IMG/VR virus record: IMGVR_UViG_3300040815_001101
Span: 1 to 25,503 of that record
Source: a virus
Length of the DNA stretch: 25,503 nucleotides
Reading direction: 5' to 3' (one strand)
Shown: piece after piece, positions 1 to 17,336 of the stretch
How positions within the stretch are numbered: the first letter of the stretch is position 1
How the letters are laid out: each line of letters opens with the position of its first letter
Made by a program: the position numbers and the translations under genes
The notes under the pieces: generated by a model
Database searches by the model: none
The model's input: only the letters and a program-made list of their open reading frames with translations
What the model was told of the DNA's origin: nothing

Positions 1-105
1 ATAGAACGCAGTTGGAAAACAACAGGCTGTGATAACGGAAAGTTAAAAGTTTGCTCAATGAAGTGCGGTGTTGAGTTTGATCCATTTTCTGAACAATTTA
101 AATAA
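1..105 (+). CDS. C-terminal end of a Cys-rich protein, possibly another radical SAM enzyme (5' end outside window)
   Basis: Frame 1 is open from the first base to TAA at 103-105, giving 34 residues of a protein that begins outside the window. It has three cysteines in the pattern C-x7-C-x3-C (residues 10, 18 and 22 of the fragment). The C-x3-C element resembles the terminal C-x3-C of the radical SAM proteins at 125 and 6079, where it follows a CC pair and is likely part of an auxiliary Fe-S cluster domain. Position at the head of a run of radical SAM genes supports that reading, but no catalytic CxxxCxxC is visible in this fragment. The next gene starts 19 bp downstream. Confidence 0.5.
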   Translation: MERSWKTTGCDNGKLKVCSMKCGVEFDPFSEQFK

Positions 106-117
106 TGGTGCTATAAA
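89..117 (+). promoter_or_regulatory. Candidate promoter for the radical SAM gene at 125 (also reads as a late TATAAATA motif)
   Basis: The extended -10 GGTGC-TATAAA (TATAAA at 112-117) has a poor -35 (CTGAAC, 89-94) 17 bp upstream. The 10-mer AATGGTGCTA at 104-113 recurs exactly at 7701-7710, at nearly the same distance from the start of another radical SAM gene. TATAAATA at 112-119 also matches the T4-type late promoter consensus exactly. In either reading transcription would begin at or next to the ATG at 125, giving a near-leaderless mRNA. The weak -35 lowers confidence. Confidence 0.4.
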
Positions 118-124
118 TAATTAA

Positions 125-1183
125 ATGTTAAAAGATTTGAAAAAAATCGAGCTTGAAATTACAAGTGATTGTAATGCTGCTTGTCCAGGGTGTGCTAGAA
201 CAATAAACATAGACAAACTAGTAGTAAATAGTTTTTCATTGCAAGATTTGCAAAGACTATTTCCTGTTGATGACTATTCAGGGGTAGAATTTAAATTTTG
301 TGGAGTGCTGGGAGATCCTATTGTAAATCCTGATTGTTTAGAAATGACACGTTACCTTGTAAGCTGCGGCGGCTTTGTGCATTTTAGTACCAATGGCGGA
401 TATAATACTGCTGAATGGTGGGAAGAATTAGGACGCATTTCAGCAGAAAATCCAGATAATATTTTTATTCATTTCTGTATAGATGGTCATAAAGAAACAA
501 ATCATATATATCGTGTGAATACAAAATGGAATATTGTAAAAAGAAATATTGAAGCATATGCAAAAGTTGCAGCTAAAAAAACTGGTGCTTGGATCTATAT
601 TGTATTTGATCATAATGAACACGAACTTGAAATTGCAAAACAACATGCAGCATCTTTAGGATTTGAATTTGCAACACGTACTGGTATGCGTAACAGTTAT
701 CATGATTGGATTGTTAAATTAGGCAAAAAAAATAAACAGGAAGAAAAAACAATTACTACAACAGGTAAAAAGCAACATAGTAAAGTAAATGTAGTAAAAG
801 AATTAGACGATTTTATCGAAGAATACAAATCTACAAAAGTCGAAGAAGAAAAAATAACTTCTGTGACTAATAGTATTGTTTGTAAATACATACACGAGGG
901 AGAAATCTTTATAGCTAATGATTTAACTTTGTGGCCTTGTTGTTTTCTTTGGGATAATACACTTGAAAACAAAGATAAAATATTAGAAAAATTATCTACA
1001 CAAGGCGATGGATGGAATAGTTTAAAAGACAAAAGTATAGATGAAGTTCTAGAACATCCGTGGTATAAAAAACTTTTAGTCGAAAGTTGGCATCCTTATA
1101 ATGATTTACATTTACCTAGATGTATAAAAACATGTGCAAAAAATAAAGCGTATCACAACGAAATTTTGTGGCAAAAGGATTAA
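125..1183 (+). CDS. Radical SAM protein with SPASM/twitch-like C-terminal Cys cluster
   Basis: 352 aa. The radical SAM [4Fe-4S] motif C-x3-C-x2-C is at residues 16, 20 and 23 (CNAACPGC), very near the N-terminus. A glycine-rich FCGVLGDP stretch near residues 58-65 corresponds to the SAM-binding GGE-type motif. A second Cys set at 253, 272, 273, 333 and 337 (C-xn-CC-xn-C-x3-C) looks like an auxiliary-cluster domain of the SPASM/twitch type. Family members bind SAM and generate a 5'-deoxyadenosyl radical; the substrate here is unknown. It is a clear paralogue of the gene at 6079 (shared HNEHxL segment and the same C-terminal Cys layout). The ATG has no convincing Shine-Dalgarno site, and a promoter-like sequence ends 7 nt before it. 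Confidence 0.85.
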   Translation: MLKDLKKIELEITSDCNAACPGCARTINIDKLVVNSFSLQDLQRLFPVDDYSGVEFKFCGVLGDPIVNPDCLEMTRYLVSCGGFVHFSTNGGYNTAEWWEELGRISAENPDNIFIHFCIDGHKETNHIYRVNTKWNIVKRNIEAYAKVAAKKTGAWIYIVFDHNEHELEIAKQHAASLGFEFATRTGMRNSYHDWIVKLGKKNKQEEKTITTTGKKQHSKVNVVKELDDFIEEYKSTKVEEEKITSVTNSIVCKYIHEGEIFIANDLTLWPCCFLWDNTLENKDKILEKLSTQGDGWNSLKDKSIDEVLEHPWYKKLLVESWHPYNDLHLPRCIKTCAKNKAYHNEILWQKD

Positions 1184-1185
1184 TT

Positions 1186-2157
1186 ATGAACGATCTTAAT
1201 AAAATAAACGACCTTTACAATAAGATTCCATATAGTAACTTAGAGTTTGACTGCTTTGAATTTCTTGAAAAAAATTTAAAAGAACATTATAAAAATATAG
1301 ATCCTCAAAAAGATAAAGAAAATAATTATAATGATTATGAAAAAATGGTAGAAGATAGAAGTTCTATCTTTAGTAAGATACAGGATAATTCTTATCAAAA
1401 AGGATTAAAAACTCATAACATAAATGGATTGCTTATTCCGTTTAATCCTGAGTGGTCAAGAGTAGCAATCAATTTAAGTGGAGGCGCAGATAGTGCTTTG
1501 CTTACATACATATTAGCAACGATTATAGAATCTAACAATTATAATAGCACAATAGATATAATTAATTACAAAAGATGTTGGGATAATAAACCTTGGCAAG
1601 AAGATGTTGCAGATAATGTTTATAAATGGTTAAAGAATAGATTTCCTGGTATTATTGGTAAAAAAGAATCTGCATATATTCCGCCAGAATTAGAACATGG
1701 AACTATTGGTGACATAATAGAAGGACGTAGTGCCGATCAAATTCTTGTGGCTTCATTCAATAGATATATAGCATTTAAAAACAAATATTATGCGTGTTTT
1801 AACGCAACTACAAAAAATCCTTCGTCTGATGATATCACAAGTGGAATGACAAACAGAGACAATGTACCTTATCTTATAAAAAAATTATGTTTTGTCAGAA
1901 CTGATTCTGCACACTGGGTTATAGAACCATTTACATTAGTTGAAAAAGATTGGATAATCGAGCAATATAAGAATTTAGATATTATGGAATTATTTAATAC
2001 TACTAGAAGTTGCGAAGGTGATGCAGATGACTTCAAACCATTAGGAATGGATCATATGTGGTATTCTTATGTAAATGATAGGAATATTGAAGAATGTGGA
2101 AAATGTTTTTGGTGTCTTGAAAGAAATTGGGCAAAAGAAAAGGCTGGCATAGAATGA
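1186..2157 (+). CDS. PP-loop ATPase, QueC/ExsB-like
   Basis: 323 aa from the ATG at 1186, chosen because AAAGGA lies 6 nt upstream and the start falls just after the previous stop; an in-frame ATG at 1168 is less likely. SGGADS at residues 98-103 is the PP-loop of N-type ATP pyrophosphatases, which adenylate a substrate carbonyl or carboxyl. The C-terminus has C276, then C304-x2-C307-x2-C310, like the zinc site of QueC (7-cyano-7-deazaguanine synthase). It differs from QueC in its roughly 95-residue N-terminal extension and a 27-residue gap before the Cys triplet. I see no recognisable QueD, and the radical SAM neighbours are larger than QueE. It could therefore be a preQ0-type enzyme, or a relative adenylating another substrate of this cluster. 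Translationally coupled to the next gene by ATGA. Confidence 0.75.
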   Translation: MNDLNKINDLYNKIPYSNLEFDCFEFLEKNLKEHYKNIDPQKDKENNYNDYEKMVEDRSSIFSKIQDNSYQKGLKTHNINGLLIPFNPEWSRVAINLSGGADSALLTYILATIIESNNYNSTIDIINYKRCWDNKPWQEDVADNVYKWLKNRFPGIIGKKESAYIPPELEHGTIGDIIEGRSADQILVASFNRYIAFKNKYYACFNATTKNPSSDDITSGMTNRDNVPYLIKKLCFVRTDSAHWVIEPFTLVEKDWIIEQYKNLDIMELFNTTRSCEGDADDFKPLGMDHMWYSYVNDRNIEECGKCFWCLERNWAKEKAGIE

Positions 2158-3452
2158 GCAAGCAGTATATCTGCAGTGAATTATTTAAAAGTATGGATTT
2201 AAGATTTATACAAAATAGTATAACGAACTGTTGCAAAGCAAACAAAGTTAGATTGAGTATAGAAGATTTTAAAGATCCTAATATTTTATTTAATAATAAA
2301 GAATTAAAAAGCCGCAGAGAATCTATGGTACTTGATAATAAGCTGCCAGAATCTGGATGTAATGGATGTATTAAATTTTTACCTCATAGTTTTTTTGATA
2401 ATAGAAATCACTGGACAAATACATTTTTAAACGAAGAGTTTAAAGAAAAATTATTAACCGAAGACATTGTCAATAGATTTACTATTAATCTTAGCAGTGC
2501 ATGTGATTTAAAATGTGTGTATTGCGCACCTAAAGATAGTTCAAGTTGGGCAAAAGAAGTAGGCGTTCCTACCATAAGACCTAACAATGAATGGTTTAAT
2601 GCAGCGTTTGCTAATTTTATTACCTATTTAAAAAATAAAAAGTATGATCCTAATACGCCTTATTTCTTTATAATATCCGGCGGCGAGCCTACATACAATC
2701 CTCATAATCTTGAACTAATAAAACAAATTATTAGCATTGTACCTAATAAAAATTTAGAAATTTTGCTCCATACAAATTTTAACACTAAAGAAAAAGTTTT
2801 TAACGAATACATTAAATTATTTAGAGATAATAAAGACGTACAATGTGGATTTATTGTTAGCCTTGATTCTGTAGAAGGTAGATCTGAAGCAATTAGACAC
2901 GGCTTAAATTGGGAACGTGCTATGAAAAATTTAAACTTTGTTTTAGATAATAATTTTAGCAATATTAATGTTAGAATTGCTAATACTTTGAGTGTATATA
3001 GTGCTCCATATTTTAAAGATGACATAGAATTTTACCTAGACAATTTTGGAGAAGAAAAAACAAAAGGGTTTTTTCGACCGGGCGAAGGATTTAATTATGC
3101 AGTAGAACCTGGTATGCATATTATGGGAATGCCCGAACATTTTAAAGAAGATCAAAATAAAGCTATAGATTTTTGTAGCAAAAATAAATTAAATTATCTA
3201 ATACCGCACCTAGAACAAATTCAAAATTTGATTGGTACAAAGATAAATGATTCTACAGCGTATGATTATGATCTAGCATATTCATACTTTAAAATTAAAA
3301 GACCAGAAACTGACTGGGATGGGCTATTTCCCCATATGCAAGTTATGATAGATGAATTATATGATATGTATCCTAACAAAGAACGTTATGTACCTAATAC
3401 ATCAAACCTTAGCCGTCCAGTAAATAGCTACGCAATTGGAAAAAAAGAATAG
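2154..3452 (+). CDS. Radical SAM protein with N-terminal twitch-like Cys motifs
   Basis: 432 aa from the ATG at 2154, which overlaps the previous stop as ATGA and has AAAGG 10 nt upstream. The radical SAM C-x3-C-x2-C is at 117, 121 and 124 (CDLKCVYC), followed by an SGGEPT SAM-binding motif near residue 174. Before the radical SAM domain lie CC at 26-27 and GCNGC at 68-72. The same order (CC, then C-x2-C, then radical SAM core) is seen in the next gene and fits the class of radical SAM enzymes whose twitch cluster domain is N-terminal rather than C-terminal. The segment is strongly AT-rich. Substrate not determinable. Confidence 0.85.
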   Translation: MSKQYICSELFKSMDLRFIQNSITNCCKANKVRLSIEDFKDPNILFNNKELKSRRESMVLDNKLPESGCNGCIKFLPHSFFDNRNHWTNTFLNEEFKEKLLTEDIVNRFTINLSSACDLKCVYCAPKDSSSWAKEVGVPTIRPNNEWFNAAFANFITYLKNKKYDPNTPYFFIISGGEPTYNPHNLELIKQIISIVPNKNLEILLHTNFNTKEKVFNEYIKLFRDNKDVQCGFIVSLDSVEGRSEAIRHGLNWERAMKNLNFVLDNNFSNINVRIANTLSVYSAPYFKDDIEFYLDNFGEEKTKGFFRPGEGFNYAVEPGMHIMGMPEHFKEDQNKAIDFCSKNKLNYLIPHLEQIQNLIGTKINDSTAYDYDLAYSYFKIKRPETDWDGLFPHMQVMIDELYDMYPNKERYVPNTSNLSRPVNSYAIGKKE

Positions 3453-3459
3453 AATTCAC

Positions 3460-4860
3460 ATGAAACATGTATCAGACACATTTTGTTTATTACCTTGGGT
3501 GCATCTAAGCACAAGACCAGACGGAAGTATGCGTGTATGTTGTACAGCAAACGCAAGTTCAGTTGGACCTACTAATGATAAAGAACACGGCGGACAAGTT
3601 GGAATACTTAAAACTGAAGATGGTAAGCCTAACAATCTAAATGTAAGTGATTTTGAAACTGCGTGGAATAGCACATATATGAAAAATGTGCGTAAGCAAA
3701 TGCTTGCAGGCGAAATGCCTCCTAGTTGTTTAAAATGCTACAAAGAAGAGGCAGCAGGACATCGTAGCAAACGTATGTGGGAAACAAATTATTGGAGCAA
3801 GCGTGTTGATATAGATAAAATACTTGCAGATACAAATGAAGACGGGAGTGTTCCACCTAATCTTGCATACATCGATTTGCGGTTTGGTACTAAGTGTCAA
3901 CTTGCCTGTGTAATGTGTAGCCCACATGATAGTAGTGGATGGATCAAAGACTGGAAAGCAATGTTCCCTGCTGTAAAAAATGAAAGTCTCAAAGAGATTA
4001 TGGGCTGGGCAGATAAAGGCAGTACTAATGGCAGTAGTTATAATTGGCATAAACAAAATCCTACATTTTGGAAACAGTTCTATGAACAAATGCCAAGTAT
4101 GCAACAAATTTATTTTGCCGGCGGCGAAAGTCTTATTATTGAAGAACATTACGAGATTCTTGAACATGCTATTAAAATGGGATATGCAAAGGACTTAGAG
4201 CTACGTTACAATTCTAATGGTGTAGAGTGGAGAGAAGATTTATTTGACCTATGGAAAGAATTTAAATTAGTACGCTTTCACTATTCAATAGATAGTATTA
4301 AAGAAATGAACGATTATATTCGTTATCCTAGCAAGTGGTCAAGGCAAGAAGAAGTATTTCATTTGCTAGATACGCAGACTAGCGACAATGTAGAAGTAAC
4401 TATTGCTGCCGCCGTACAAGCACTTAATGTGTATTACTTGCCAGACTTTATACAATGGAAACTAGAACAAAAGTTTAAGAAGATTAATATGTGGCCATTT
4501 GGTGCAGGCGGCATTAGTCAGCACTTTGTATATTGGCCGGCACATCTAAACGTAAAAGTATTACCTAAATGGTTCAAAGAAGAATGTAGAGCAAAATACG
4601 AAGCCTGGTATCCATGGTGGGAAGAAAACTGGGAGTTGGGTATTCCTAGCTGGCACAAGGGTAAAGTTACTAAAGAGGATTTTATGCAAGCTGAATATGG
4701 TATAAAAAGACTAGACGGAATACTTAGTTTTATGGAAAGTGAAGACTGGAGTAGACGTTTGCCAGAGATGCAAGAATTTTTAGGCTTATGTGACAAACAA
4801 CGTGGAATTACTTTTGCGGAAACATTTCCAGAAATGAAGGATATATTTAATGAGTTTTGA
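3460..4860 (+). CDS. Twitch-domain (N-terminal) radical SAM protein
   Basis: 466 aa from the ATG at 3460, 7 nt after the preceding stop; an in-frame TTG at 3436 is possible but overlaps the previous gene. The N-terminal domain begins with a C-x-LPW element (C9), an RPDGSMRVCC segment (CC at 27-28) and SCLKC (90, 93), which together read as an N-terminal twitch domain. The radical SAM core follows with C146, C150 and C153 (CQLACVMC) and a GGES motif. This matches the architecture NCBI calls twitch domain-containing radical SAM protein, recalled from memory. It is a paralogue of the gene at 2154. Its base composition is less AT-extreme than that of the two genes before it. Confidence 0.88.
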   Translation: MKHVSDTFCLLPWVHLSTRPDGSMRVCCTANASSVGPTNDKEHGGQVGILKTEDGKPNNLNVSDFETAWNSTYMKNVRKQMLAGEMPPSCLKCYKEEAAGHRSKRMWETNYWSKRVDIDKILADTNEDGSVPPNLAYIDLRFGTKCQLACVMCSPHDSSGWIKDWKAMFPAVKNESLKEIMGWADKGSTNGSSYNWHKQNPTFWKQFYEQMPSMQQIYFAGGESLIIEEHYEILEHAIKMGYAKDLELRYNSNGVEWREDLFDLWKEFKLVRFHYSIDSIKEMNDYIRYPSKWSRQEEVFHLLDTQTSDNVEVTIAAAVQALNVYYLPDFIQWKLEQKFKKINMWPFGAGGISQHFVYWPAHLNVKVLPKWFKEECRAKYEAWYPWWEENWELGIPSWHKGKVTKEDFMQAEYGIKRLDGILSFMESEDWSRRLPEMQEFLGLCDKQRGITFAETFPEMKDIFNEF

Positions 4861-6079
4861 TACAGTAGATTTACTTACCGGTAATGTTTTTCAAGTTACA
4901 TGGGATGTTGGAAGAAGATGCAATTACGATTGTTCTTACTGTCCTGCACATAGGCATGACAATTTTAGCAAACATGCAACTTTAGATGAATTAAAAGCTA
5001 ATACCGATTTCTTATTTGAGTATATTGATACATACATGGAGCATAGAAATCATAAAGAAACTAACATAAGTTTTACAGGAGGAGAGCCTACTGTAAATCC
5101 TAATTTTATTCCTTTCCTACAGTATCTACAAAAGACATATGAAGAAAAATATTCTGATAAGTGGATTGCAGGATTTGCGCTTACTACTAATGGTGCAATG
5201 AGTGAAAAGATGGCAACTGCTGTAATGAAGCATGTATCACATGCAACTATAAGTTATCATTCTGAAAGTGATAACAAATTAAAACAACAAGTGCGTGATC
5301 GCATAATGCAATTTCATACGCAAGGTCCTGACAATGATTGTTCAGTAAGTGTAAATGTAATGTTTCATGCTGCATATTTTGATGAGTGTAAAGAACTTTG
5401 TGATTTTTTGCATGAAAATGGTGTTGCATATGTTCCTAGAGTAATTGGTGAAGAAGCAGGTAGTAGAAGTAATTTTTCACACTTATACACAGACGAACAA
5501 CTTGACTATATGAAAAATTATTGGAAATATAAAAATGCCAAACTAAATGACGAAAAAGAAGTTGCAGCAACTCTTAGTGCAGCAGGAGAAGCACAAAATG
5601 AAAAGCACAAAGTAGAAAAGAAAGATGGCTGGGCTATCGGAAGACCGTGTTGTGGCAGTAGAGAAATGTGTTTAAGTGCAAAAGGTGAAGAACGTAAAGG
5701 CACATTTGTAGATTTTAGAAACTTCAAAGGATGGAATTGTAGTGTCAATTGGTTCTTCTTACACCTAGAGCAACAAACTGATAGTGTATTCCATCATCAA
5801 ACCTGCCAAGCAAAATTTGATCAGACAAGAGGACCTATAGGAAAAATAAGTGAAGGTAAAAAAATTATTGCTGATTTGAAAGAAAAACTTGCTAGCGGTA
5901 CTATGCCTACAGTAGTATGTCCTAAACATACATGCGGTTGTGGCCTATGTGCTCCTAAAAGTGTTCATCTAGCAAATTATAAAACTACACTAGCAAGACA
6001 TGTCGATATGAAAGTTTTTGATAATGCAGAATTTCAAGAACCGAACGGTACTCCTATAAATCCTACAGAGGTTGTGTAA
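4850..6079 (+). CDS. Radical SAM protein with C-terminal Cys-rich region
   Basis: 409 aa. AAGGA 8 nt before the ATG, and an 11-nt overlap with the upstream gene, support this start. C24-x3-C28-x2-C31 (CNYDCSYC) and TGGEPT near residue 76 define the radical SAM domain. The C-terminal half has a GWNC segment, a later isolated Cys and a compact THTCGCGLC-like cluster that could hold auxiliary Fe-S or zinc. It is paralogous to the gene at 7721: both have GR-x-CNY-x-CSYC at the core and FKGWNC followed by a distant Cys in the C-terminal part. Reaction unknown. The stop overlaps the next start as TAATG. Confidence 0.85.
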   Translation: MSFDTVDLLTGNVFQVTWDVGRRCNYDCSYCPAHRHDNFSKHATLDELKANTDFLFEYIDTYMEHRNHKETNISFTGGEPTVNPNFIPFLQYLQKTYEEKYSDKWIAGFALTTNGAMSEKMATAVMKHVSHATISYHSESDNKLKQQVRDRIMQFHTQGPDNDCSVSVNVMFHAAYFDECKELCDFLHENGVAYVPRVIGEEAGSRSNFSHLYTDEQLDYMKNYWKYKNAKLNDEKEVAATLSAAGEAQNEKHKVEKKDGWAIGRPCCGSREMCLSAKGEERKGTFVDFRNFKGWNCSVNWFFLHLEQQTDSVFHHQTCQAKFDQTRGPIGKISEGKKIIADLKEKLASGTMPTVVCPKHTCGCGLCAPKSVHLANYKTTLARHVDMKVFDNAEFQEPNGTPINPTEVV

Positions 6080-7029
6080 TGTGGTCAATGGACACTATAG
6101 AATGGATTGATATCGAACTTACTAGTTTTTGTAATATACAATGCAAAGGCTGTTTTAGAGTTATATCTAATCAAGCAGATAAAATTTTAAACAAAAGTTA
6201 TATCGACTTGGAAACAATAAAAAATAGATTTAAAAAAGATCAATTTCCTAATATCAAGATAATCAACTTTTGTGGAAGTGTAGATGAGCCTACAACTCAT
6301 CCTCAGTTCTTTGAAATAATAGATCATTTTGCCGCATGGGATTGTCATATCAACATTGCTACTAATGGTAGCTTGCGTACTACAAAATGGTGGGCAGAGC
6401 TTGCTGAAAGATTACCGAATAGTCATAGAGTGACATGGGGCATTGATGGTAGTGATGAATTAAGCGAAATATATAGAGAGGGTTCGAGCTTTAAAAAAGT
6501 AGAACAAAATTACAAAGCATTTATCGCTGCCGGCGGCAAAGCTGTTTGGCAATTCATTGTATTTGAACATAACGAACATCAATTAGACACTGCAAAGGAG
6601 TTAGCAAAGTCTGAAGGGTTTAAGGATTTCAAAACTATTATAAGTCATAGAAAAGACACAAAGTCTGTTACTCCTAAGCAAGAACAAATTGATAATGTTC
6701 AAGAAGAATCTTATATAAGTTGTAAGTATAAAGACCAAAAAAGAATTTTTATTAATCATACAGGCAATGTAATACCTTGCTGTCATTTGAATAGTAAAAT
6801 GCTAGAATATAATGCAAGTGGTATAATCAAAGATAATTTTGAACAATTATTAAATGATCACAATTATAAAAAAACAATTAATCTAAATGAAGTAGATATC
6901 GACGAAGCAATATCTAGCAACATATGGAATGAGATTATAAGTTCATGGAATACTGACTCGCCCCTGCCGAGGTGTGAGCAAGTTTGTAAAAAATTAAAGA
7001 GAGATAAATTTATAAAAGAATCTTTATAA
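6079..7029 (+). CDS. Radical SAM protein with SPASM/twitch-like C-terminus, paralogue of the gene at 125
   Basis: 316 aa. The start ATG overlaps the previous TAA, with GAGG about 7 nt upstream. C18-x3-C22-x2-C25 (CNIQCKGC) is the SAM-cluster motif, and FCGSVDEP at residues 64-71 is the variant glycine-rich loop. Auxiliary Cys residues at 215, 234, 235, 299 and 303 match the spacing pattern of the 125 gene, and both share an F(D/E)HNEHxL segment, so the two arose by duplication or are old paralogues. Its TAA abuts the stop codon of the oppositely oriented nitroreductase gene, forming TAATTA at 7027-7032. Confidence 0.85.
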   Translation: MWSMDTIEWIDIELTSFCNIQCKGCFRVISNQADKILNKSYIDLETIKNRFKKDQFPNIKIINFCGSVDEPTTHPQFFEIIDHFAAWDCHINIATNGSLRTTKWWAELAERLPNSHRVTWGIDGSDELSEIYREGSSFKKVEQNYKAFIAAGGKAVWQFIVFEHNEHQLDTAKELAKSEGFKDFKTIISHRKDTKSVTPKQEQIDNVQEESYISCKYKDQKRIFINHTGNVIPCCHLNSKMLEYNASGIIKDNFEQLLNDHNYKKTINLNEVDIDEAISSNIWNEIISSWNTDSPLPRCEQVCKKLKRDKFIKESL

Positions 7030-7644: not shown

Positions 7645-7664
7645 CTCAGTCCTCCCTTATAGTG

Positions 7665-7672
7665 TATTTATC
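7665..7672 (-). promoter_or_regulatory. Candidate T4-type late promoter (GATAAATA) for the nitroreductase gene
   Basis: The - strand reads GATAAATA, matching the NATAAATA late motif of T4-like marine phages. It ends about 20 nt before the ATG at 7644, leaving room for a short leader carrying GGGAGG. Its position in a 76-bp divergent intergenic region strengthens the call. Confidence 0.5.
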
Positions 7673-7675
7673 TTT

Positions 7676-7683: not shown

Positions 7684-7685
7684 TC

Positions 7686-10099: not shown

Positions 10100-11054
10100 T
10101 ATAGATTTAAAAAAATGCACAGATGAACAGATTAAGAATGTAGCAAAATTAACTGCATATCATTCTAATGTATTGTTACGTAATCAAGAACTTACAAAAG
10201 ACGACTATGCTAGAATACTTGCTCTATGGGGAGATAAGACACAGCATCATGCTTGGTATGAAGATCCTGATTATCACCAAATACAATATGTAACAAACCG
10301 TGCTATGCCCGAATTAGGAGGCAAGCGTGGGATATTTCCACAAGGCGAACTTGAATGGCATTGTAACGGCACACTTGCACTTGATCCAGAAGACTGTGTA
10401 ACATTGTATTGTGTTGTTCCTACAAAGGATAGATGCGATACTATATTCTTAAACGGCGTTGAAGCATACAACGACTTGCCCAATCATGTAAAGAAAACAA
10501 TTGACAATACTATGCTAATGATTACAAGTGATGTAAGAAGTTTTCATAGAAGCGACTTTGAACATTTAATTACACGTACCGAACAGCCTCGTATACTTAA
10601 TGACAACAGAGCATATACTATAAGCGAAGATCAAGTTACTGCGGATGAAGCAAAAGATCTACACAACATACAAGGACGTAAGCGTAGTAATGGTCCTATC
10701 TATCAAGAGATGATGCGTAGGAAACAAGAATTTAGCGTAGAAGGTCGATGGAAGTATACCTACAAAAAACTAGTTCATGAGCATACAGTAACAGGGCAAA
10801 AAGGATTATATTTTCCTTTCTTAAATGTAGCAGGACTACATGATATTCCAAAAGATGAACAAAAAGAATTATACGACTATCTAGTTAAACATTACTTAAC
10901 GTATGAATATAGTCACGATTGGAAAACTGGAGATTTGATGTTGTTTGATCAAACACAAGCACTACACAAGCGTCAGCCCTTTCCTGAAGTCGACGGTGAA
11001 CAGCAAGATAGACTGTTGTGGCGAGGAGCATTTTACTATGACGGTGTACAGTAG
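10077..11054 (+). CDS. TauD/TfdA-family 2-oxoglutarate oxygenase with HxN instead of HxD
   Basis: 325 aa. The fold signature is TauD-like: an N-terminal LLRNQELT segment (the family's FR-Q-L), EWH at 93-95, then AYNDLP, and a C-terminal GDLMLFDQTQALHKR with H297 and the R312/R316 pair (RLLWRG). Family members oxidise small molecules such as taurine, 2,4-D or gamma-butyrobetaine. The expected H-x-D metal-binding pair is H95-C96-N97 here, so the carboxylate ligand is replaced by asparagine (codon AAC at 10365-10367). It is paralogous to the gene at 14488. It overlaps the desaturase by 23 nt and the next gene by 17 nt. Confidence 0.75.
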   Translation: MNIHKELDIDLKKCTDEQIKNVAKLTAYHSNVLLRNQELTKDDYARILALWGDKTQHHAWYEDPDYHQIQYVTNRAMPELGGKRGIFPQGELEWHCNGTLALDPEDCVTLYCVVPTKDRCDTIFLNGVEAYNDLPNHVKKTIDNTMLMITSDVRSFHRSDFEHLITRTEQPRILNDNRAYTISEDQVTADEAKDLHNIQGRKRSNGPIYQEMMRRKQEFSVEGRWKYTYKKLVHEHTVTGQKGLYFPFLNVAGLHDIPKDEQKELYDYLVKHYLTYEYSHDWKTGDLMLFDQTQALHKRQPFPEVDGEQQDRLLWRGAFYYDGVQ

Positions 11055-11613
11055 AGATAGTGATGTAGAATATGTACACATGAACTGGCAAGTTCCTGTT
11101 GACATTATCGAACAAGAATACCTAGCAGTAAAAGATTCAATAATCATACATCGTCCTGAAGACGGCCACAAGGACTGGAAAGCAGTTACACTATACGGCG
11201 TTGGATCAGATAAAACAAACAGTCATTGGGAATACGGAAAGCGTGAACGCAAGACTGTAACAGACATAGGCGCACAGTGTCCTAAGACAATGGAATGGAT
11301 AAACACACTACCATTAGCACGTATTGACGATGTACGTTTCTTAGTTATTGAGCCAGGCGGATACATTGCTCCACACATTGATGTACCAGATCGTAACTGG
11401 TTAGAGCCTATAAACATTTGTATTACATGGCCTGAAGGAAGTGTGTTTACACACAACGGAAAACAGTTGCCCTACGCACCCGGAGTGCCGTTAGTACTTA
11501 ATATACATTATGAACATGATGTAAAAAACAATTCAGACAAGCAACGATTACATTTATTAATACATGCTAAAAAATCAAAAGAGTTTTGGAACGATGTCTA
11601 TACATTTTCCTGA
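11038..11613 (+). CDS. Aspartyl/asparaginyl beta-hydroxylase-like 2-oxoglutarate oxygenase
   Basis: 191 aa from the ATG at 11038, chosen because GAGGAG lies upstream with 9-nt spacing; a longer frame from 10945 would overlap the previous gene by 110 nt. EPGGYIAPHID gives H113-x-D115. NGKQLPYAPG followed by H160 and R170 (spacing H-x9-R) matches the AspH-type core, where a short N-rich turn separates H and R. Catalytic residues therefore look complete. Substrates in the family include Asp/Asn side chains and lipid A, but none can be assigned here. It overlaps the sulfotransferase by 20 nt. Confidence 0.7.
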   Translation: MTVYSRDSDVEYVHMNWQVPVDIIEQEYLAVKDSIIIHRPEDGHKDWKAVTLYGVGSDKTNSHWEYGKRERKTVTDIGAQCPKTMEWINTLPLARIDDVRFLVIEPGGYIAPHIDVPDRNWLEPINICITWPEGSVFTHNGKQLPYAPGVPLVLNIHYEHDVKNNSDKQRLHLLIHAKKSKEFWNDVYTFS

Positions 11614-12277
11614 TATTAAAGCAACTTTTATCCACATCCCTAGAACAGGCGGCACCAGCTTACTTCATTGGGCAACTTCAACTAGCATAGATTTCGACGC
11701 ACCTAAAAAATATAAGCATTGTACATTTAGTGAAGCAACAAAACTTTGGAAAACTTTAGGTACAACTTTTACATTTGTAAGAAATCCATATGATAGAATG
11801 GTAAGTTTATTTCACTATATGGGGCAAAATGCAAAAAACAGAGTGGAGGTATGGAATAGAGGACATACCCCAACTACTCTCGACGGAATACAAAATTCTA
11901 TCTATAATGATGATATAGCAATGTCTAATTATTATGACTTAGGATTTGAAAATTGGCTAATTGATTATAGTAACGAATCTAGCAGTCCTTATAATTCTTA
12001 CACTAATGTACGCAATCCAGAAATATTTAATAATTGGTATAGCACGCCAAGGACAATAAATTATTGGATTGAAGATAGTATCGATATTATAATAAAAATA
12101 GAAGAACTTAAAAATAAAATAGGATTATTAGAAGAAGTATTTAACACATCAATACATATGTCACATTCTAATAGCTCGACTAGAGATAATTACAAAAACT
12201 ATTATAATAATAACACAAGAAATATTATACAAACAATGTTTAAAGACGATTTAGAAAAATACGGATATGAATTCTAA
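11594..12277 (+). CDS. Sulfotransferase-family protein
   Basis: 227 aa from the ATG at 11594 (AAAGAG upstream); an ATG at 11564 is possible. FIHIPRTGGTS at residues 12-22 is the 5'-phosphosulfate-binding loop. FVRNPYDRMVS at 61-71 is the 3'-phosphate-binding motif of the Sulfotransfer_2 type used by carbohydrate sulfotransferases. These enzymes move sulfate from PAPS to hydroxyls. This one could act on a hydroxyl made by a neighbouring oxygenase, or on a host or phage glycan; both are inference. The C-terminal third is Asn/Tyr-rich and of low complexity. No PAPS-synthesis gene is in the window. It ends directly before the next ATG. Confidence 0.75.
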   Translation: MSIHFPDIKATFIHIPRTGGTSLLHWATSTSIDFDAPKKYKHCTFSEATKLWKTLGTTFTFVRNPYDRMVSLFHYMGQNAKNRVEVWNRGHTPTTLDGIQNSIYNDDIAMSNYYDLGFENWLIDYSNESSSPYNSYTNVRNPEIFNNWYSTPRTINYWIEDSIDIIIKIEELKNKIGLLEEVFNTSIHMSHSNSSTRDNYKNYYNNNTRNIIQTMFKDDLEKYGYEF

Positions 12278-12811
12278 ATGATGAAATCTCCTAAAAAAAA
12301 CATGGCAGGCGTTATTAGTTTTTATCCTAGCGAACGTCCTGACCTAATAGAACAACTAAACAACCTACAGTTTAATGACAATGATCCTTTAAACACAAAT
12401 TATAAAAATATTGATTGGCATGAGTTTCAAGTTATTAGTGTTTATGAAAACGATGGCATTGTACAAGGATTTAGTGTAGCATGGCACAGACCAGAATACT
12501 ATGCAGAAAATGAAGTAAGGATTCTATCACGCTACTGGAAAGATACTAGCATTAGATTAACATGTACACATACTGAACTAAGTATGCCGCACTTGATTGA
12601 TATGATTACACATCAAATGACCATGTGTAAAGAATTAGGATTTACTAGTGCATTTATAAGCCGAGAAAAAAGTCCAAGATACTTTCGCAAGCTAATTACT
12701 AGTATACAAGAAAAAACAAGCACACAATGGCATTTATATGATGATAGACAATGTGTGTGCATACCAGAAGCGCCGAGTTGTTGGCAATATAAAGCGAGTA
12801 CCGAACTATGA
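12278..12811 (+). CDS. Hypothetical protein, weakly GNAT-like
   Basis: 177 aa. The TAA of the sulfotransferase is followed immediately by ATGATG; the Shine-Dalgarno is weak. The order of elements (an N-terminal strand with ISFYPSERP, a central GIVQGFSVAW strand, then an amphipathic helix MITHQMTMCKELGFTSAF and a terminal WHLYDDRQ strand) recalls small N-acyltransferases that give each other a beta-alpha-beta core. I see no clear R/Q-x-x-G-x-G/A acetyl-CoA loop, so function is open. Tight packing between the sulfotransferase and an oxygenase (ATGA overlap) suggests it belongs to the same pathway. Confidence 0.55.
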   Translation: MMKSPKKNMAGVISFYPSERPDLIEQLNNLQFNDNDPLNTNYKNIDWHEFQVISVYENDGIVQGFSVAWHRPEYYAENEVRILSRYWKDTSIRLTCTHTELSMPHLIDMITHQMTMCKELGFTSAFISREKSPRYFRKLITSIQEKTSTQWHLYDDRQCVCIPEAPSCWQYKASTEL

Positions 12812-13473
12812 AACGTAGAGAAGAACTTCCATTTTTTAAAAAATTACCTTATACATTTGATGTAGACCGCATTTTAAAAGATTTTAATTTAATTAAAGAT
12901 AAAAATGATGATCTAACCATTGAAGGCGGTTACGGAGACTTAGTAGGTAGTAAAGCACCCAAGTTAGAAAATGCGTTTAGTATTGGCAAGTATACAGAGT
13001 ATGTAGATGGAATGGTTAAAGGTGATTATACACAAGTTGGTATGACACAGTATAATCCAGATGCTGTAAACAGAGAATACAATATTAAAATCAGCAATAA
13101 ACGCCCAGACGAACGTCATTATAATTCACTACGTCCTGAACTTGAAGGCAGTTATATACAAGAAGTTATGAATACATTTCGTGGAGAAGCAACTAGAACA
13201 CGCATTGCTATTCTAAAACCAGGTGCTGCTATCAAACCACACATTGACTATAACACTGATTATAGTGTGAGATATCATATACCTCTTAAAACAAATGATC
13301 TTTGTGGGTTTGATAATGTAGACAAGGCAGGTAACAGAGAAGAAATACACATGGGGTTAGGCGAGTGCTGGTTTTTAAATCAAGGATTCAGACACAGTGC
13401 CTGGAACAACGGTGATACTGAAAGATGGCATTTGATTGTTAGTGTGCTAACACAGGAAGATCTTAATGATTAA
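12808..13473 (+). CDS. Aspartyl/asparaginyl beta-hydroxylase-like 2-oxoglutarate oxygenase
   Basis: 221 aa. KPGAAIKPHID gives H145-x-D147, followed by VRYHIPLKTN (residues 154-163), a typical AspH-family strand. FLNQGFRHSAWNNGDTER supplies H196 and R206 with the family spacing of 10. All three iron ligands and the 2-oxoglutarate arginine are present, so this is one of the best-preserved oxygenases in the set. The N-terminal 120 residues have no recognised domain. ATGA overlap with the upstream gene and an 8-nt overlap with the next gene point to coupled translation. Confidence 0.75.
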   Translation: MKRREELPFFKKLPYTFDVDRILKDFNLIKDKNDDLTIEGGYGDLVGSKAPKLENAFSIGKYTEYVDGMVKGDYTQVGMTQYNPDAVNREYNIKISNKRPDERHYNSLRPELEGSYIQEVMNTFRGEATRTRIAILKPGAAIKPHIDYNTDYSVRYHIPLKTNDLCGFDNVDKAGNREEIHMGLGECWFLNQGFRHSAWNNGDTERWHLIVSVLTQEDLND

Positions 13474-13975
13474 AAATAAAATAAAAAATAGTTTTATAAC
13501 CACTGACTATCGTATAGATCCGGCATTCTGGAAAACATATATGACCGGCGAATGGCAAGACAGTAATAAATTATATTCAGAATATGTAAGTGATGCAACT
13601 GGCGGCAAAGAAATGAATAAGTTCTTTGTACAAGAAATTCATAACTTTGATAGACCTTTACTAAAATTAATCAAAAGTCTTTGGAATGAGTTTGGTATTC
13701 GTCCGCGAGATTTTAGATGTAACTTCTTTAGAGTGTTAGAAGGCGGCAATCTTCCTGTACATGTAGATGTCAAAAGTGAATGTAGTTTTCTTATTCCTGT
13801 AACAAAAAACACAGGTGCATTATATGTAGAAGAACAAGGCACTGAAAGTATTGTGTATGATACACTTACAGTGCTTAACACAAAACTACCACACGGTGTA
13901 GAAGCACCAGCACAAGAACGTATAGTGTTTCATATGGGAATACACGATATAAAATTTGGAGAATTAAATGTATAG
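13466..13975 (+). CDS. Small 2-oxoglutarate/Fe(II) oxygenase
   Basis: 169 aa, with AGGA about 8 nt before the ATG. NLPVHVD gives H99-x-D101. LPHGV supplies H143 and ER(152)IVFHMG the probable 2-oxoglutarate-binding arginine. The GALYVEEQG turn between them fits the beta-hairpin of the double-stranded beta-helix. The catalytic set looks complete despite the small size, close to the minimum for this fold. Substrate unknown. Confidence 0.7.
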   Translation: MIKNKIKNSFITTDYRIDPAFWKTYMTGEWQDSNKLYSEYVSDATGGKEMNKFFVQEIHNFDRPLLKLIKSLWNEFGIRPRDFRCNFFRVLEGGNLPVHVDVKSECSFLIPVTKNTGALYVEEQGTESIVYDTLTVLNTKLPHGVEAPAQERIVFHMGIHDIKFGELNV

Positions 13976-14498
13976 GTTAGATAAACAATACGATATAAAA
14001 AAAATTAAATCTGAATATCACGAGCTTGTAAAAAAAGTAGGCTGGACGCCAGGGTTACCAGATCACTTTGATGCAATTACTTTGCAAACTGATGGTACTG
14101 AAGATTACCATTTACATTATGAAATTGATAAATTCTATATCCGACACTGGGACGATAATGATGTAAAAGAATGGACTGAACAAAATGAATCTTTCAAACA
14201 GTTATTAATTCCACCAGAATGGGAAATGTCAAAATTTATAATTGAAAATAATTTAACAAGAACAAGAATATTACGAATAGCACCTCGATTTGTTTATAAT
14301 ACTCATAAAGACTGGACAGATAGATGTCAATTAGGAATTATTACAAATGAGTATTGTTATTATATAGAAGAAGGTGTTGCGTATAATATACCAGATGATG
14401 GCTACGGTTATGTTACTGAAACAACAAAAATGCACAGTGCAGCAAATGCTAGCACAGAATACAGAGTAAATTTAGCAGGATGTATAAATGTGGCATAA
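13968..14498 (+). CDS. Putative 2-oxoglutarate/Fe(II) oxygenase
   Basis: 176 aa, with GGAG 6 nt before the ATG. In the C-terminal half, APRFVYNTHKD gives H113-x-D115. MHSAANASTEYR gives H156 and R166, the same H-to-R spacing of 10 as in the gene at 12808. The N-terminal half (about 100 residues) has no motif I recognise. It overlaps its neighbours by 8 and 11 nt. Confidence 0.6.
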   Translation: MYRLDKQYDIKKIKSEYHELVKKVGWTPGLPDHFDAITLQTDGTEDYHLHYEIDKFYIRHWDDNDVKEWTEQNESFKQLLIPPEWEMSKFIIENNLTRTRILRIAPRFVYNTHKDWTDRCQLGIITNEYCYYIEEGVAYNIPDDGYGYVTETTKMHSAANASTEYRVNLAGCINVA

Positions 14499-15294
14499 AG
14501 AATATAATGTAGATATTAAAAAAATGTCTAACGAAGAACTAAAACAAGTTGCAAGAGACATTAACAAACATTTAGTTGTAGTATTTAGGAATCAAAGTCT
14601 TACACCTGAAGATGAACTTAGAATTGCTAGTGTAATGGGCAATGTAAAAGCAAATACAGGTGAAAGCACAAGTTCTAAGGATAATTTAAGTCTTGTTCCA
14701 GGCGTGCTAAGAGTCACTGGAGAACTTAATGATAAAGGTGTGCCGGGTCTATTCGGGCACGAAATAGAATTAGATTGGCATACGCACCATCCTACAGAAA
14801 AAAATAGATGGCCTTTTGTTTGGTTATATAGCGAACGTGGTAGTAAAGGAAGTAGAACTAGCTGGATCAATCAAGTTTTTGCTTACAATGATCTGCCAGA
14901 AGATATAAAACAAAAGGTAAATGGTATAACTGTTGCTTGCGGACATAAAGTAGGTAATTTTAGTCCAAGTGAAATATTTCAAAATAATGTTGTTTATAAT
15001 AATCCACAAAAAATTGTAAGAACAAATATTGAGAATCTCACAGGATTATACTTTCCTTTTCTACAAATATTTGATGTAATTAATGGTGCTACTAAAGAGG
15101 AATGGCCTGATTTATTTGAATATCTTAAAAATCATATCTTACAAGAGAAATATATAATGCATCATGATTGGGAAGATGGCGATCTTGTTATAAGCGAACA
15201 GTGGTTAAGCATACATAAACGCTGGACATTTGCAGATATGAAAACGAGAGTATTACATAGAATAGCATTAGATTATGAACACAGTTACGTATAG
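14488..15294 (+). CDS. TauD-like 2-oxoglutarate oxygenase with HxH instead of HxD
   Basis: 268 aa. It aligns by eye with the gene at 10077: the same start region (HKE-x-x-VDIKK, then VVFRNQSLT), a shared AYNDLP, GLYFPFL and HDW-x-x-GDL. LDWH at 95-98 is the family's first iron ligand, but the residue two further on is H100 rather than Asp (codons at 14779-14787). H243 and R258 supply the distal histidine and the likely 2-oxoglutarate-binding arginine. Either metal binding has changed to a three-His type, the chemistry differs, or the protein has lost activity. The reading frame is intact and conserved in style, which argues against simple decay. Confidence 0.7.
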   Translation: MWHKEYNVDIKKMSNEELKQVARDINKHLVVVFRNQSLTPEDELRIASVMGNVKANTGESTSSKDNLSLVPGVLRVTGELNDKGVPGLFGHEIELDWHTHHPTEKNRWPFVWLYSERGSKGSRTSWINQVFAYNDLPEDIKQKVNGITVACGHKVGNFSPSEIFQNNVVYNNPQKIVRTNIENLTGLYFPFLQIFDVINGATKEEWPDLFEYLKNHILQEKYIMHHDWEDGDLVISEQWLSIHKRWTFADMKTRVLHRIALDYEHSYV

Positions 15295-15757
15295 CAAACT
15301 AAATTTACCTAGGTTAGATTTACCAAAAATATGGCATACAAATGATGTACAACTGAAAGCAAAAGTTGGAGGGTATATTGCGTATTATGTGACTGACGAA
15401 GTTGATAAACAAATAAGGAGCTTATTTCCGAAAGAGTTTTTTCCTAAAAAAACTCATATAATTGCACAGTTTATTGATCCTCAATTAAACGGACTTATAC
15501 ATATGGATAGGCGTGAGTTTGCTATTAACTATGTGCTTAATAAAGGTGGCTTAGACGCTCATACAAGCGTTTACAGCAGTGATAGTGTGCTAGAGAGTAC
15601 ATATACGCAACAGGAGCAAGAATGGTACTTGTTAAATACATATAAGAACCATGCAGTACATAATATAACAGATACACGAGTTGCAATTAGTATAAGTTTT
15701 TATGAATTTGGAGACACACAATGGAGGTTTATAAATGAAAAATATGAAAGCAAATAA
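15275..15757 (+). CDS. Small 2-oxoglutarate/Fe(II) oxygenase
   Basis: 160 aa. LIHMD gives H76-x-D78; NHAVHN (H126) and TRVAISISF (R135) complete the set with H-to-R spacing of 9. Between them the chain has the Tyr/Ser-rich strands expected of a jelly-roll core. The start lies 20 nt inside the preceding gene with no strong Shine-Dalgarno, so translation probably depends on coupling. Substrate unknown. Confidence 0.65.
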   Translation: MNTVTYSKLNLPRLDLPKIWHTNDVQLKAKVGGYIAYYVTDEVDKQIRSLFPKEFFPKKTHIIAQFIDPQLNGLIHMDRREFAINYVLNKGGLDAHTSVYSSDSVLESTYTQQEQEWYLLNTYKNHAVHNITDTRVAISISFYEFGDTQWRFINEKYESK

Positions 15758-16625
15758 ACCATTTGATGATGAAACACTAAAGAACATGGATATTATACAT
15801 GATCCTAACACTAAGTTCTTTAAGGATCAATACGAGCCTAGTTACAGCATAGATAACTTTATTACAGAACAAGAACGTGTACAGTTGCTTGACTTTTGGT
15901 ATAAAGAGTACAACAATGTTGGCTGGGAAATAAATGGACATATTGTAAACATTCCGCACCCTATACGCTACAGCGTAATAAATGATATTTTACGGTCTAA
16001 AGTATATGAACACTTTGGAGAAGATACTATATTTTATAGCGAAGTTTCGAATGATCCTATAAGTGTTGGTGATCAGATGTTTAAAAGTATTAGACCTTAT
16101 GGATTACATACAGACAGTGTTACACATATTCCCGGCTATCGTCCTTATAAAGACATTATTTTACCATTAGAAATACATAATAATGTATCAATAGATTATG
16201 TAACTTTTAATCAACGTTATCGCGGAAGAGCTACACATTTTATGAAAAATAGACATATTTCTAATTTTAGCGGTTATAGTAATACCTTTAGATTATTACC
16301 ATATGAGCAGTACGGAGTTGAAGGTATAGAATACAATAAACTAGACTGGGCATGGATGGAACGTGAAATGCCTGAACACATACCTATGAGTATATACGAA
16401 GGATTAAGTATAGAAGAAGTGTTGCCCTGGAAATTGTGTAGTGGCATTGTACAAGATACAAGTGTATTACACGCACCGACAGATTTTAGAAAAAAAGGTT
16501 GTGAATGGAAAATAGCAATAACATTTCATTTAATGAAAAAGGATGAAACTTATAATAATGCTATAGAAGGATATCCTACATCTTTTAGCAGATATACTCT
16601 TAATCCGCCTTTACTGGAGAAATAA
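15735..16625 (+). CDS. Putative 2-oxoglutarate/Fe(II) oxygenase with long central insert
   Basis: 296 aa, with GGAGG 7 nt before the ATG, inside the end of the upstream gene. RPYGLHTD gives H125-x-D127. DTSVLHAP supplies H246 near the C-terminus, followed by FRKKG (R252) and K259 as candidate 2-oxoglutarate ligands. The roughly 120-residue stretch between the two motif regions is much longer than in neighbouring oxygenases and rich in Tyr, Asn and Arg, so it may form a lid or substrate-binding domain. The C-terminal arginine assignment is uncertain. The TAA stop is followed immediately by the next ATG. Confidence 0.6.
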   Translation: MKNMKANKPFDDETLKNMDIIHDPNTKFFKDQYEPSYSIDNFITEQERVQLLDFWYKEYNNVGWEINGHIVNIPHPIRYSVINDILRSKVYEHFGEDTIFYSEVSNDPISVGDQMFKSIRPYGLHTDSVTHIPGYRPYKDIILPLEIHNNVSIDYVTFNQRYRGRATHFMKNRHISNFSGYSNTFRLLPYEQYGVEGIEYNKLDWAWMEREMPEHIPMSIYEGLSIEEVLPWKLCSGIVQDTSVLHAPTDFRKKGCEWKIAITFHLMKKDETYNNAIEGYPTSFSRYTLNPPLLEK

Positions 16626-17336
16626 ATGGAAGATAGATTTAAAAAATATATTAGGCACAATTTTATAGGTGGACATGAAAACGATCCTAAAATGTTTGTT
16701 CCTACTGACGAACAAATTCATTGCGAACAGCAACTAGCAATGTTAGGTGATTATGCTAAGTTAAACTTTAGTTTAGATATAGATAAATTTAATAGTGAGT
16801 TAGAACCATATAACGATAAATGGGTTGATTATCTTCCTAGAAAAGGCGAATACGATCCTAGATACGGGTTAATGTTATGGGGACTAGAAGGTGATGACTG
16901 TAATGATAGTTTAAGTTTGCCAGAAGCTAGAAAACGTATAGGCCACAAAGTAATGGAAGCGGATTTTAATTATCCTACTCAGTTATACAAAGATCTTACT
17001 AGTATCCATGATTTATGTGATTATTTTTCTCCACTAGGAAGAACATTTTTAGTTAAAGCAGACGCAGGAGCATATTTTCCACCACATAGAGATCATCAAT
17101 ATTTAACTAGAGATTGTTTTAGAGTGTGTGCATTCTTTGATAATACAGGTGACGAAGCATTCGAATGGGAACAAAACGGAAGAAGATTGCCGATTACTCC
17201 TGGAAATGTAATTTACATTGACACAACTAAAGTACATCGCACTCACTCTTGGGCAAATGGAAGTATTCATTTAATAATGAATATTCCAAAAACTTGGGAT
17301 AATGTAATAAAATTAATAAGTGTTCTAGGTGTTTAG
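16626..17336 (+). CDS. AspH-like 2-oxoglutarate oxygenase, last gene of the + strand run
   Basis: 236 aa, with GGAG 7 nt before the ATG. AGAYFPPHRD gives H154-x-D156; FRVCAFF, then EQNGRRLPITPGNV, then H204/H207 follow the AspH-type order also seen at 11038. Where relatives have Arg about 10 residues after the distal His, this protein reads WANGSIHLIM, so that arginine is missing; R166 on the earlier strand may take its place. The stop codon TAG (17334-17336) overlaps the stop of the convergent fibre gene, and no terminator is visible between them. Confidence 0.65.
   Translation: MEDRFKKYIRHNFIGGHENDPKMFVPTDEQIHCEQQLAMLGDYAKLNFSLDIDKFNSELEPYNDKWVDYLPRKGEYDPRYGLMLWGLEGDDCNDSLSLPEARKRIGHKVMEADFNYPTQLYKDLTSIHDLCDYFSPLGRTFLVKADAGAYFPPHRDHQYLTRDCFRVCAFFDNTGDEAFEWEQNGRRLPITPGNVIYIDTTKVHRTHSWANGSIHLIMNIPKTWDNVIKLISVLGV

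Follow-up and report, generated by a model that had tools for sequence, protein, structure and literature searches.

Cassettes of radical S-adenosylmethionine (SAM) genes are known from the host recognition cluster (HRC) of pelagimyophages (Zaragoza-Solas 2020, PMC7029224), and the marine T4-like phage genome TARA_ERS488813_N000010 harbors 12 radical SAM genes (Nishimura 2017, PMC5332604). A further set lies in the virus record IMGVR_UViG_3300040815_001101 of IMG/VR, analyzed here over its whole length of 25,503 bp (hereafter the window), where positions 125 to 17336 bring together six radical SAM genes with the CxxxCxxC motif and ten genes resembling oxygenases, along with one gene each for a PP-loop ATPase, nitroreductase, desaturase and sulfotransferase. 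This island consists of two layers: a conserved core, which recurs in many phage contigs and in Bdellovibrionota, and a set of variable tailoring genes.

The HRC resembles the island in being a large variable region of T4-type phages at the tail-fibre genes, which includes glycosyltransferases and, in some cases, cassettes of radical SAM genes. In pelagiphage HTVC008M, 2-oxoglutarate (2OG) oxygenases adjoin gp14, and no radical SAM gene is annotated in the HRC. The present island is likewise a variable one inside a tail-fibre module, but it does not occupy the position between VrlC and gp14 that characterizes the HRC, its flanks being fibre repeats and a VWA/MoxR side; moreover, neither a conserved radical SAM core nor a bacterial counterpart is described for the HRC. 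Our first assumption, that the window belongs to a pelagimyophage, was given up after a comparison with HTVC008M and a search with the VWA protein, whose nearest isolates are jumbo phages (PA5oct, Phosso, Atu_ph07 and others, about 37-44% identity); the backbone is a different one and nearer to these phages. TARA_ERS488813_N000010, likewise from a marine phage, is comparable in its number of radical SAM genes, which the available part of the report presents as Fe-S gene content, without island, core, position or function. Glycans of virion proteins exist in mycobacteriophages, where phage glycosyltransferases attach them (cited in PMC12619734, ref. 45); unlike what is proposed here, that model includes no tailoring by radical SAM enzymes or oxygenases, and the likeness is meant as an analogy.

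Among protein families, NF033640 models a subfamily for which it names no reaction. The third radical SAM protein of the window (rSAM3) is a full-length member (422.3 bits against a cut-off of 170, positions 1-398 of a 398-position profile), and proteins rSB and rSC of sister islands are also above the cut-off, several paralogues per genome lying here in one conserved cluster. In polytheonamide-type clusters of ribosomally synthesized and post-translationally modified peptides (RiPPs), several radical SAM enzymes, a 2OG oxygenase and a methyltransferase act on one product. The island can be likened to these by description, but no precursor peptide was found in it beside a radical SAM maturase, and none of its radical SAM proteins exceeds a maturase cut-off. 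In the literature searched, which left subscription papers and preprints largely outside, phages with multiple radical SAM genes appear in passing mentions only, and neither the core, nor its fibre-side locus across the lineage, nor the Bdellovibrionota counterpart was found described. A paper on "moraphages", other large aquatic phages, proved not to concern this island.

A conserved core and a variable layer beside tail-fibre genes

The block comprises 20 genes on one strand and one nitroreductase gene on the other, as called by a simple longest open reading frame (ORF) method. Fifteen of the 19 same-strand neighbour pairs overlap and three are spaced by 0-1 bp, the sole large intergenic gap being the site of the nitroreductase. 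The content and tight packing given in a preliminary description of the window are real, except that the nitroreductase, listed there within the packed series, is encoded on the minus strand. The mixture of O2-sensitive and O2-requiring enzymes and the need for iron pointed out in that description are what the enzyme classes would predict. Chance can be excluded for this arrangement because it was found again in scores of contigs (all phage sequences used here are IMG/VR contigs, none shown to be complete).

The core is composed of the glycosyltransferase-like F8, the methyltransferase-like u323, the 74-aa protein p74 and four radical SAM families (rSAM1/5, rSAM3, rSAM4 and rSAM6), while 2OG oxygenases, desaturases, sulfotransferases and nitroreductases form the variable layer. 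Searching IMG/VR with rSAM4 gave 63 viral loci; in 39 dereplicated loci and the larger records, the four radical SAM families are present nearly everywhere and the PP-loop gene, p74, u323 and F8 in 22-28 sets, counts partly limited by contig ends. With rSAM6, at least 586 encoding viral stretches were retrieved. Where 10 kb were available on each side (52 loci), a radical SAM gene of the twitch type is present in 51, rSAM1/5 in 41, the PP-loop gene in 25 and rSAM4 in 21, with a median of seven radical SAM genes per 21 kb in loci with full flanks. The p74 family (L075:16003-16239, about 70% mean identity) led to 435 viral stretches, and all 30 full loci associate a glycosyltransferase-like protein, rSAM1/5 and a twitch radical SAM protein. 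Retrieval through a core gene biases such counts toward co-occurrence, which is of lesser concern because three different queries agree. Gene fusions suggest that the core genes are functionally tied together: two F8 domains and u323 form a single 854-aa protein in contig G018, a twitch radical SAM protein is fused to a PP-loop homologue in loci L009 and L013, and two twitch radical SAM proteins are fused in L064.

The tailoring genes behave differently. The first TauD-like protein of the window has seven relatives in IMG/VR, against at least 586 stretches for rSAM6, although this single-sequence query has a shorter reach. Pfam assignments among 138 accessory representatives include Asp/Arg hydroxylases (8), nitroreductases (7), desaturases (4) and QueC (4), as well as methyltransferases, other 2OG oxygenases, AMP-binding enzymes, sulfotransferase, P450 and others, that is, tailoring enzymes and not replication genes. 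The preliminary description had proposed an undescribed modification pathway formed by one coupled set. For the radical SAM core this proposal is supported by synteny in phages, recurrence in bacteria and gene fusions, the core being syntenic in many phage records and not scattered singly, as the refuting condition of that description would have required; for the oxygenase, desaturase and sulfotransferase half a single fixed pathway is not supported, as these genes are variable cassettes.

The island is larger than the approximately 17 kb initially given. All the genes reported are there, but contig G002 (47,971 bp), which matches the window genes at 99-100% across the shared stretch, harbors an island of ~33 kb (about 4852-37961) of which the window covers the right half. 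From the left, the other half contains GT8-like proteins, F8 proteins, more radical SAM genes, u323 and p74, then UDP-glucose-dehydrogenase-like and SGNH-like proteins before the window genes (the GT8-, dehydrogenase- and SGNH-like labels come from reading by eye). Contig G001 (85,585 bp) matches most window genes at 82-99% and two at 60-66%. To the left of the island lie the tail-fibre repeat proteins F76 and F77, the latter matching the tail fibre family phrog_19602, accompanied in G001 by a giant protein of 5,248 aa whose correspondent in G018 adjoins a baseplate wedge subunit; to the right lies the putative fibre F72. G018 (146 kb) has the same layout, with the island at ~79-112 kb. Fibre-type genes thus border both sides in the three records read through (G001, G002 and G018), and of the 31 p74 loci whose flanks are complete, 21 have a homologue of these fibre proteins no more than 10 kb upstream.

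Matches to the radical SAM model PF04055 in whole viral records, including those under the curated cut-off, number 11 in both G001 and G002, 22 in G016, 20 in G022, 23 in G342 (180 kb), 21 in G341, 20 in G338, 18 in G337 (275 kb) and 14 in G336 (382 kb). Other close relatives have 6-18 per record, and three records retrieved solely through distant rSAM4 relatives (29-33%) have 2-4. Such distant relatives in L057, L061-L063 and L065 are not accompanied by the rest of the core, save for rSAM1/5-like matches in L057. Searches of isolate phages gave no near-identical match to the whole window and no protein match to rSAM4, the PP-loop protein or rSAM6; rSAM3 has just 21% matches, in two Vibrio phages.

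Counterparts of the core in Bdellovibrionota

A genome-wide search with the twitch radical SAM alignment identified 71 loci, and the close chromosomal-looking ones belong nearly all to Bdellovibrionota (L089 is titled only "bacterium", and its genome came up in the Bdellovibrionota search), chromosomal status being judged from contig size and from genes recognized by eye. These clusters harbor together, in varying combinations, rSAM3 (51-64% identity), rSAM6 (56-67%), rS0 (40-49%), F8 and u323, often with rSAM4, a short-chain dehydrogenase/reductase, a PP-loop protein and a second twitch radical SAM protein. In G040 the cluster lies on a 937-kb contig among housekeeping genes (gatA/gatB-, prfA- and murA-like, by eye); in G037 it adjoins ribosomal protein and rpoB/rpoC-like genes (also by eye) and includes relatives of TauD, Asp/Arg hydroxylases and desaturases, as in the phages. 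The core is reduced to F8, rSAM3, rSAM6 and rS0 in G047, where the PP-loop gene is missing. A glycosyltransferase-2 protein (PF00535, E 1e-21) lies within the cluster in five loci, and p74 was not found in the Bdellovibrionota loci. Overall, rSAM6 is present in 17 of the 291 Bdellovibrionota genomes sampled.

When 93 rSAM6 sequences were placed in a maximum-likelihood tree, the 81 viral ones and L098 formed one clade (100/100) and the other 11 bacterial sequences fell outside. This single viral clade argues that the phage lineage has probably retained rSAM6 for long; the bootstrap was not fully converged, and the midpoint root gives no direction of transfer. L087, L097 and L098 come from metagenome-assembled genomes named Neisseriaceae, Rickettsiales and Gammaproteobacteria and contain p74 and core genes of high identity; they are better explained as phage contigs misbinned with bacteria, L098 lying inside the viral clade.

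Recurring pairs of putative membrane proteins of ~160 and ~270-330 aa were observed beside Bdellovibrionota radical SAM clusters (L158-L168, L171-L173). Their assignment as SdpA/SdpB-HTTM pairs was dropped, as Pfam gave no match for the two pairs tested. Small proteins with twin-arginine (Tat) signals near the bacterial clusters were considered as substrates and set aside, being plausible in two scanned genomes only (G037 and G038) and having no common core.

Candidate products of the pathway

With a probability of roughly 0.4, we favor the view that the island encodes a dedicated scaffold-plus-tailoring pathway of large uncultured aquatic phages, whose product would be a glycoconjugate on the virion or the infected cell. 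We infer the order of the steps, the chemistry, the substrate and the purpose as follows. F8, u323, p74, the rSAM1-type protein, rSAM3, rSAM4 and rSAM6, often with the PP-loop protein, would make a common intermediate. The glycosyltransferase-like and methyltransferase-like proteins F8 and u323 would prime the molecule, the twitch/SPASM radical SAM enzymes would perform hydrogen-abstraction chemistry (oxidation, epimerization or bond formation), and the PP-loop enzyme could activate a carboxylate at the expense of ATP. Oxygenases and the sulfotransferase would finish the molecule, the fast-changing tailoring set (2OG oxygenases, desaturase, sulfotransferase, nitroreductase and methyltransferases) presumably giving each phage a different decoration. 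Displayed on tail fibres of the virion or on the infected cell, such a glycoconjugate could alter, through its variability, recognition by hosts, rival phages or predators. The balance tips toward a displayed glycoconjugate because of the tail-fibre position and the glycosyltransferase neighbours in bacteria.

Several observations weigh against this glycoconjugate pathway. The phage island has no recognized flippase, polymerase, ligase or exporter, and no flippase, polymerase or ligase is among 25 of the 49 Pfam families listed for the 138 accessory representatives; a host-surface glycan would therefore need host export. For SPASM/twitch radical SAM enzymes, peptides are commoner substrates than sugars. 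F8 matches the glycosyltransferase family PF13641 with an E-value of 1.7e-5, under the cut-off, and has no solved relative; the methyltransferase label of u323 was given by eye, without Pfam, PHROG or PDB relative, and PDB profile searches returned nothing credible for either protein. The structure model of rSAM6 is poor, with a predicted local distance difference test (pLDDT) score of 59, so that its pocket cannot be judged and its fold search is meaningless.

The known preference of SPASM/twitch enzymes, most of which are peptide maturases, speaks for a modification of peptides or proteins, in which the radical SAM enzymes and the Asp/Asn-hydroxylase-like oxygenases would act on a phage peptide or on the tail fibres, giving a RiPP-like product or a hypermodified structural protein. 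Known PF05118 enzymes hydroxylate protein residues, the named families nearest to rSAM4 and rSAM5 include peptide maturases, and a cytoplasmic protein target would fit soluble enzymes next to fibre genes. We nevertheless regard this as somewhat unlikely, since the NCBIfam peptide-maturase matches of the island proteins are far under their cut-offs and a precursor gene was not found. There is no room for a further small ORF in the window block, and p74, which alone among small ORFs is conserved, shows even conservation with no variable core, has a Cys-free consensus and is missing from the bacterial clusters. A diffusible small molecule or a lipid made during infection (a natural-product-like signal, toxin against competitors, metal chelator or membrane lipid) would suit the accessory desaturase, AMP-binding enzymes, aminotransferase, P450, aldehyde dehydrogenase and nitroreductases, and also the predatory lineages to which the bacterial counterpart belongs. 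It appears improbable given the conserved tail-fibre position, the rarity of AMP-binding proteins (2 of the 138 accessory representatives) and the fact that no carrier protein, synthetase or exporter was recognized.

The PP-loop protein and the deazaguanine genes bear on a DNA hypermodification, in which the QueC-like enzyme and the radical SAM proteins would extend a 7-deazaguanine base of phage DNA. As noted in the preliminary description, the ATPase is QueC-like: it has the PP-loop fold and a C-terminal Cys motif, SGGADS and CxxCxxC being invariant in the island alignments. Foldseek placed its model (pLDDT 73.6, and >80 for a large part of the catalytic domain) nearest to Bacillus subtilis QueC (3bl5, E 4.6e-6), then to NcsA, Cap9 and other PP-loop enzymes, neighbours that make it plausible that the enzyme activates a carboxylate with ATP or transfers sulfur. 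Unlike QueC/Cap9-type enzymes, whose fold and Cys motif it shares, it does not match the Pfam QueC model PF06508 at E 0.01 (only ATP_bind_3, at 0.0078), has no adjoining QueD or QueE, and has homologues fused to twitch radical SAM proteins. A QueE-like gene does occur in 13 of 14 large records and a QueD-like protein in G018, but outside the island, the former with the RNaseH/MoxR backbone, and a QueC-size match separate from the island is found in several records; QueE, QueD, QueC and a transglycosylase are not united in one locus, and the deazaguanine genes seem to form a pathway apart. As the minimal bacterial core also lacks the PP-loop gene and the assigned oxygenases are of TauD and Asp/Arg-hydroxylase types, not TET/JBP, we consider DNA hypermodification very improbable. 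The one QueE-like sequence read (L070:16738-17631) has CNFRCMNF, that is, the third Cys of CxxxCxxC is missing. A 509-aa protein of the same locus (L070:9058-10587) contains DSGGFQ, a motif known from tRNA-guanine transglycosylases or DpdA, and has no Pfam or PHROG match; the transglycosylase-like candidate F136 gave no Pfam or PHROG match.

There is equally little to expect from a passive hot spot, where unrelated metabolic genes would accumulate beside tail fibres without a common pathway. The high variability of the oxygenase half and the comparable variable region of pelagimyophages (PMC7029224) are in its favor, but for the core it is already contradicted: the core genes are nearly always together, are fused in some loci, change very slowly (82% mean identity for rSAM6) and are jointly present on bacterial chromosomes.

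If a displayed glycoconjugate is indeed the product, hundreds of aquatic phages would commit much of their genome to one oxygen-sensitive, iron-costly pathway linked to host contact, many new radical SAM enzymes would stand in a common testable context offering a route to the function of NF033640, and phages might be linked chemically to predatory Bdellovibrionota. More tentatively, the product might represent a new class of molecule made by chemistry outside known pathways, by a system common to a widespread phage lineage and Bdellovibrionota and giving, at the fibre locus, a coat for recognition or shielding that can be diversified. Even with an ordinary product, the division into core and variable genes accounts for a group of "auxiliary metabolic genes" until now listed singly.

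Genes of the window

All six radical SAM proteins predicted in the preliminary description have the CxxxCxxC motif and match PF04055 (Table 1), rSAM1 under the cut-off of 29.5 bits, and all have further Cys residues, mostly placed suitably for auxiliary clusters. Orthologues of rSAM1 (50-68% identity) are present in many phage loci and those of rSAM3 (78-91%) in most, compared with seven loci only for rSAM2, which scores 144.6 bits against NF033640, under the cut-off, though aligned across nearly the whole profile. The C-terminal Cys residues of rSAM4 are invariant, and the identity of rSAM6 given above, a column mean over 18 phage sequences, includes long invariant stretches. None of the island radical SAM proteins attains the cut-off of an NCBIfam family with a known reaction, and PDB profile searches with rSAM4 and rSAM1/5 gave generic radical SAM relatives only.

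Regarding the "about ten" HxD...H oxygenases of the preliminary description, seven of the ten are firm by family (two TauD and five of the Asp/Arg-hydroxylase family), three are weaker, and the two TauD-like proteins lack the Asp. The Asp/Arg-hydroxylase group combines its family match with an HxD...H motif whose HxD is conserved at 94-100% (the Asp is found in 34 of 36 members of the AAH1 family), and the last oxygenase of the block has homologues in several Bdellovibrionota clusters. In TauD-like protein 1, HxD is replaced by HCN, with WHCN also in the close homologues read; neither TauD-like protein has the HxD/E of the facial triad, and both keep the distal LHKR/IHKR. These proteins may be inactive or have a non-standard iron site. 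HxN (HSN, HCN or HAN) or HTH, with the distal His kept, is also found in most of the TauD-like relatives from other islands and from G037. The two proteins starting at 8833 and 15735 form one family with conserved H and mostly D, and no profile link to known oxygenases. The nitroreductase, sulfotransferase and desaturase were correctly recognized (PF00881, PF03567 and, just under the cut-off, PF00487), the last having three intact His boxes (HRYFSH, HRMHH and HKDHH). Cofactor pockets were judged in part, by motifs.

Beyond the block, 17333-25299 on the minus strand is phage backbone, encoding the putative tail fibre, the VWA protein, an ATPase of the MoxR type and a protein that resembles exonuclease/RNaseH. 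The border fibre has the same position in G001 and G002, and a similar protein lies there in G018.

Table 1. Features of the window, with their coordinates, strand and supporting matches or motifs
Feature	Position	Strand	Evidence
rSAM1, SPASM-like C-terminal Cys, core family rSAM1/5	125..1183	+	PF04055 25.1 bits; CxxxCxxC at residue 16
PP-loop ATPase, QueC-like, core	1168..2157	+	SGGADS; C-terminal CGKCFWCLER
rSAM2, N-terminal-twitch radical SAM	2127..3452	+	PF04055 40.6 bits
rSAM3, N-terminal-twitch radical SAM, core	3436..4860	+	NF033640
rSAM4, Cys-rich C-terminus, core	4850..6079	+	PF04055 44 bits
rSAM5, radical SAM/SPASM, family rSAM1/5	6079..7029	+	PF04055 46 bits; SPASM 24.8 bits
Nitroreductase, accessory	7030..7644	-	PF00881 34.6 bits
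rSAM6, core, best conserved among the island's radical SAM proteins	7721..8833	+	PF04055 55 bits
Probable non-haem iron oxygenase, HND...H...R	8833..9531	+	Motif only; no Pfam match
Fatty-acid-desaturase-like di-iron protein	9533..10099	+	PF00487 29.6 bits, cut-off 29.7
TauD-like protein 1	10077..11054	+	PF02668 106 bits
Asp/Arg-hydroxylase-like 2OG oxygenase 1 (AAH1)	10945..11613	+	PF05118 57 bits
Sulfotransferase	11564..12277	+	PF03567 36.5 bits
Accessory protein with Bdellovibrionota relatives	12278..12811	+	No Pfam match; 28-36% homologues in L089, L101
Asp/Arg-hydroxylase-like 2OG oxygenase 2 (AAH2)	12808..13473	+	PF05118 61 bits
2OG oxygenase, Asp/Arg-hydroxylase family	13466..13975	+	hhalign 97-98% to PF05118-matching families
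Asp/Arg-hydroxylase-like 2OG oxygenase 3	13968..14498	+	PF05118 22.5 bits, cut-off 22.6; hhalign 100%
TauD-like protein 2	14488..15294	+	PF02668 90 bits; HxD replaced by HTH (WHTH)
Probable 2OG oxygenase, HMD...H	15275..15757	+	hhalign 72% to AAH1 (30 columns)
Probable non-haem iron oxygenase	15735..16625	+	hhalign 100% to 8833 family; H125, H246 conserved
2OG oxygenase, Asp/Arg-hydroxylase family	16626..17336	+	hhalign 100% to AAH1/AAH2
Putative tail fibre protein at the right island border	17333..18619	-	Fibre-like by eye; PHROG matches weak and all to unnamed families
VWA-domain protein and MoxR-type ATPase, backbone outside the island	20155..22617	-	phrog_1314, phrog_1297

Finally, a carbamoyltransferase (PF16861, PF02543) with 40% identity to its counterpart in HTVC008M is encoded at L070:617-2113.

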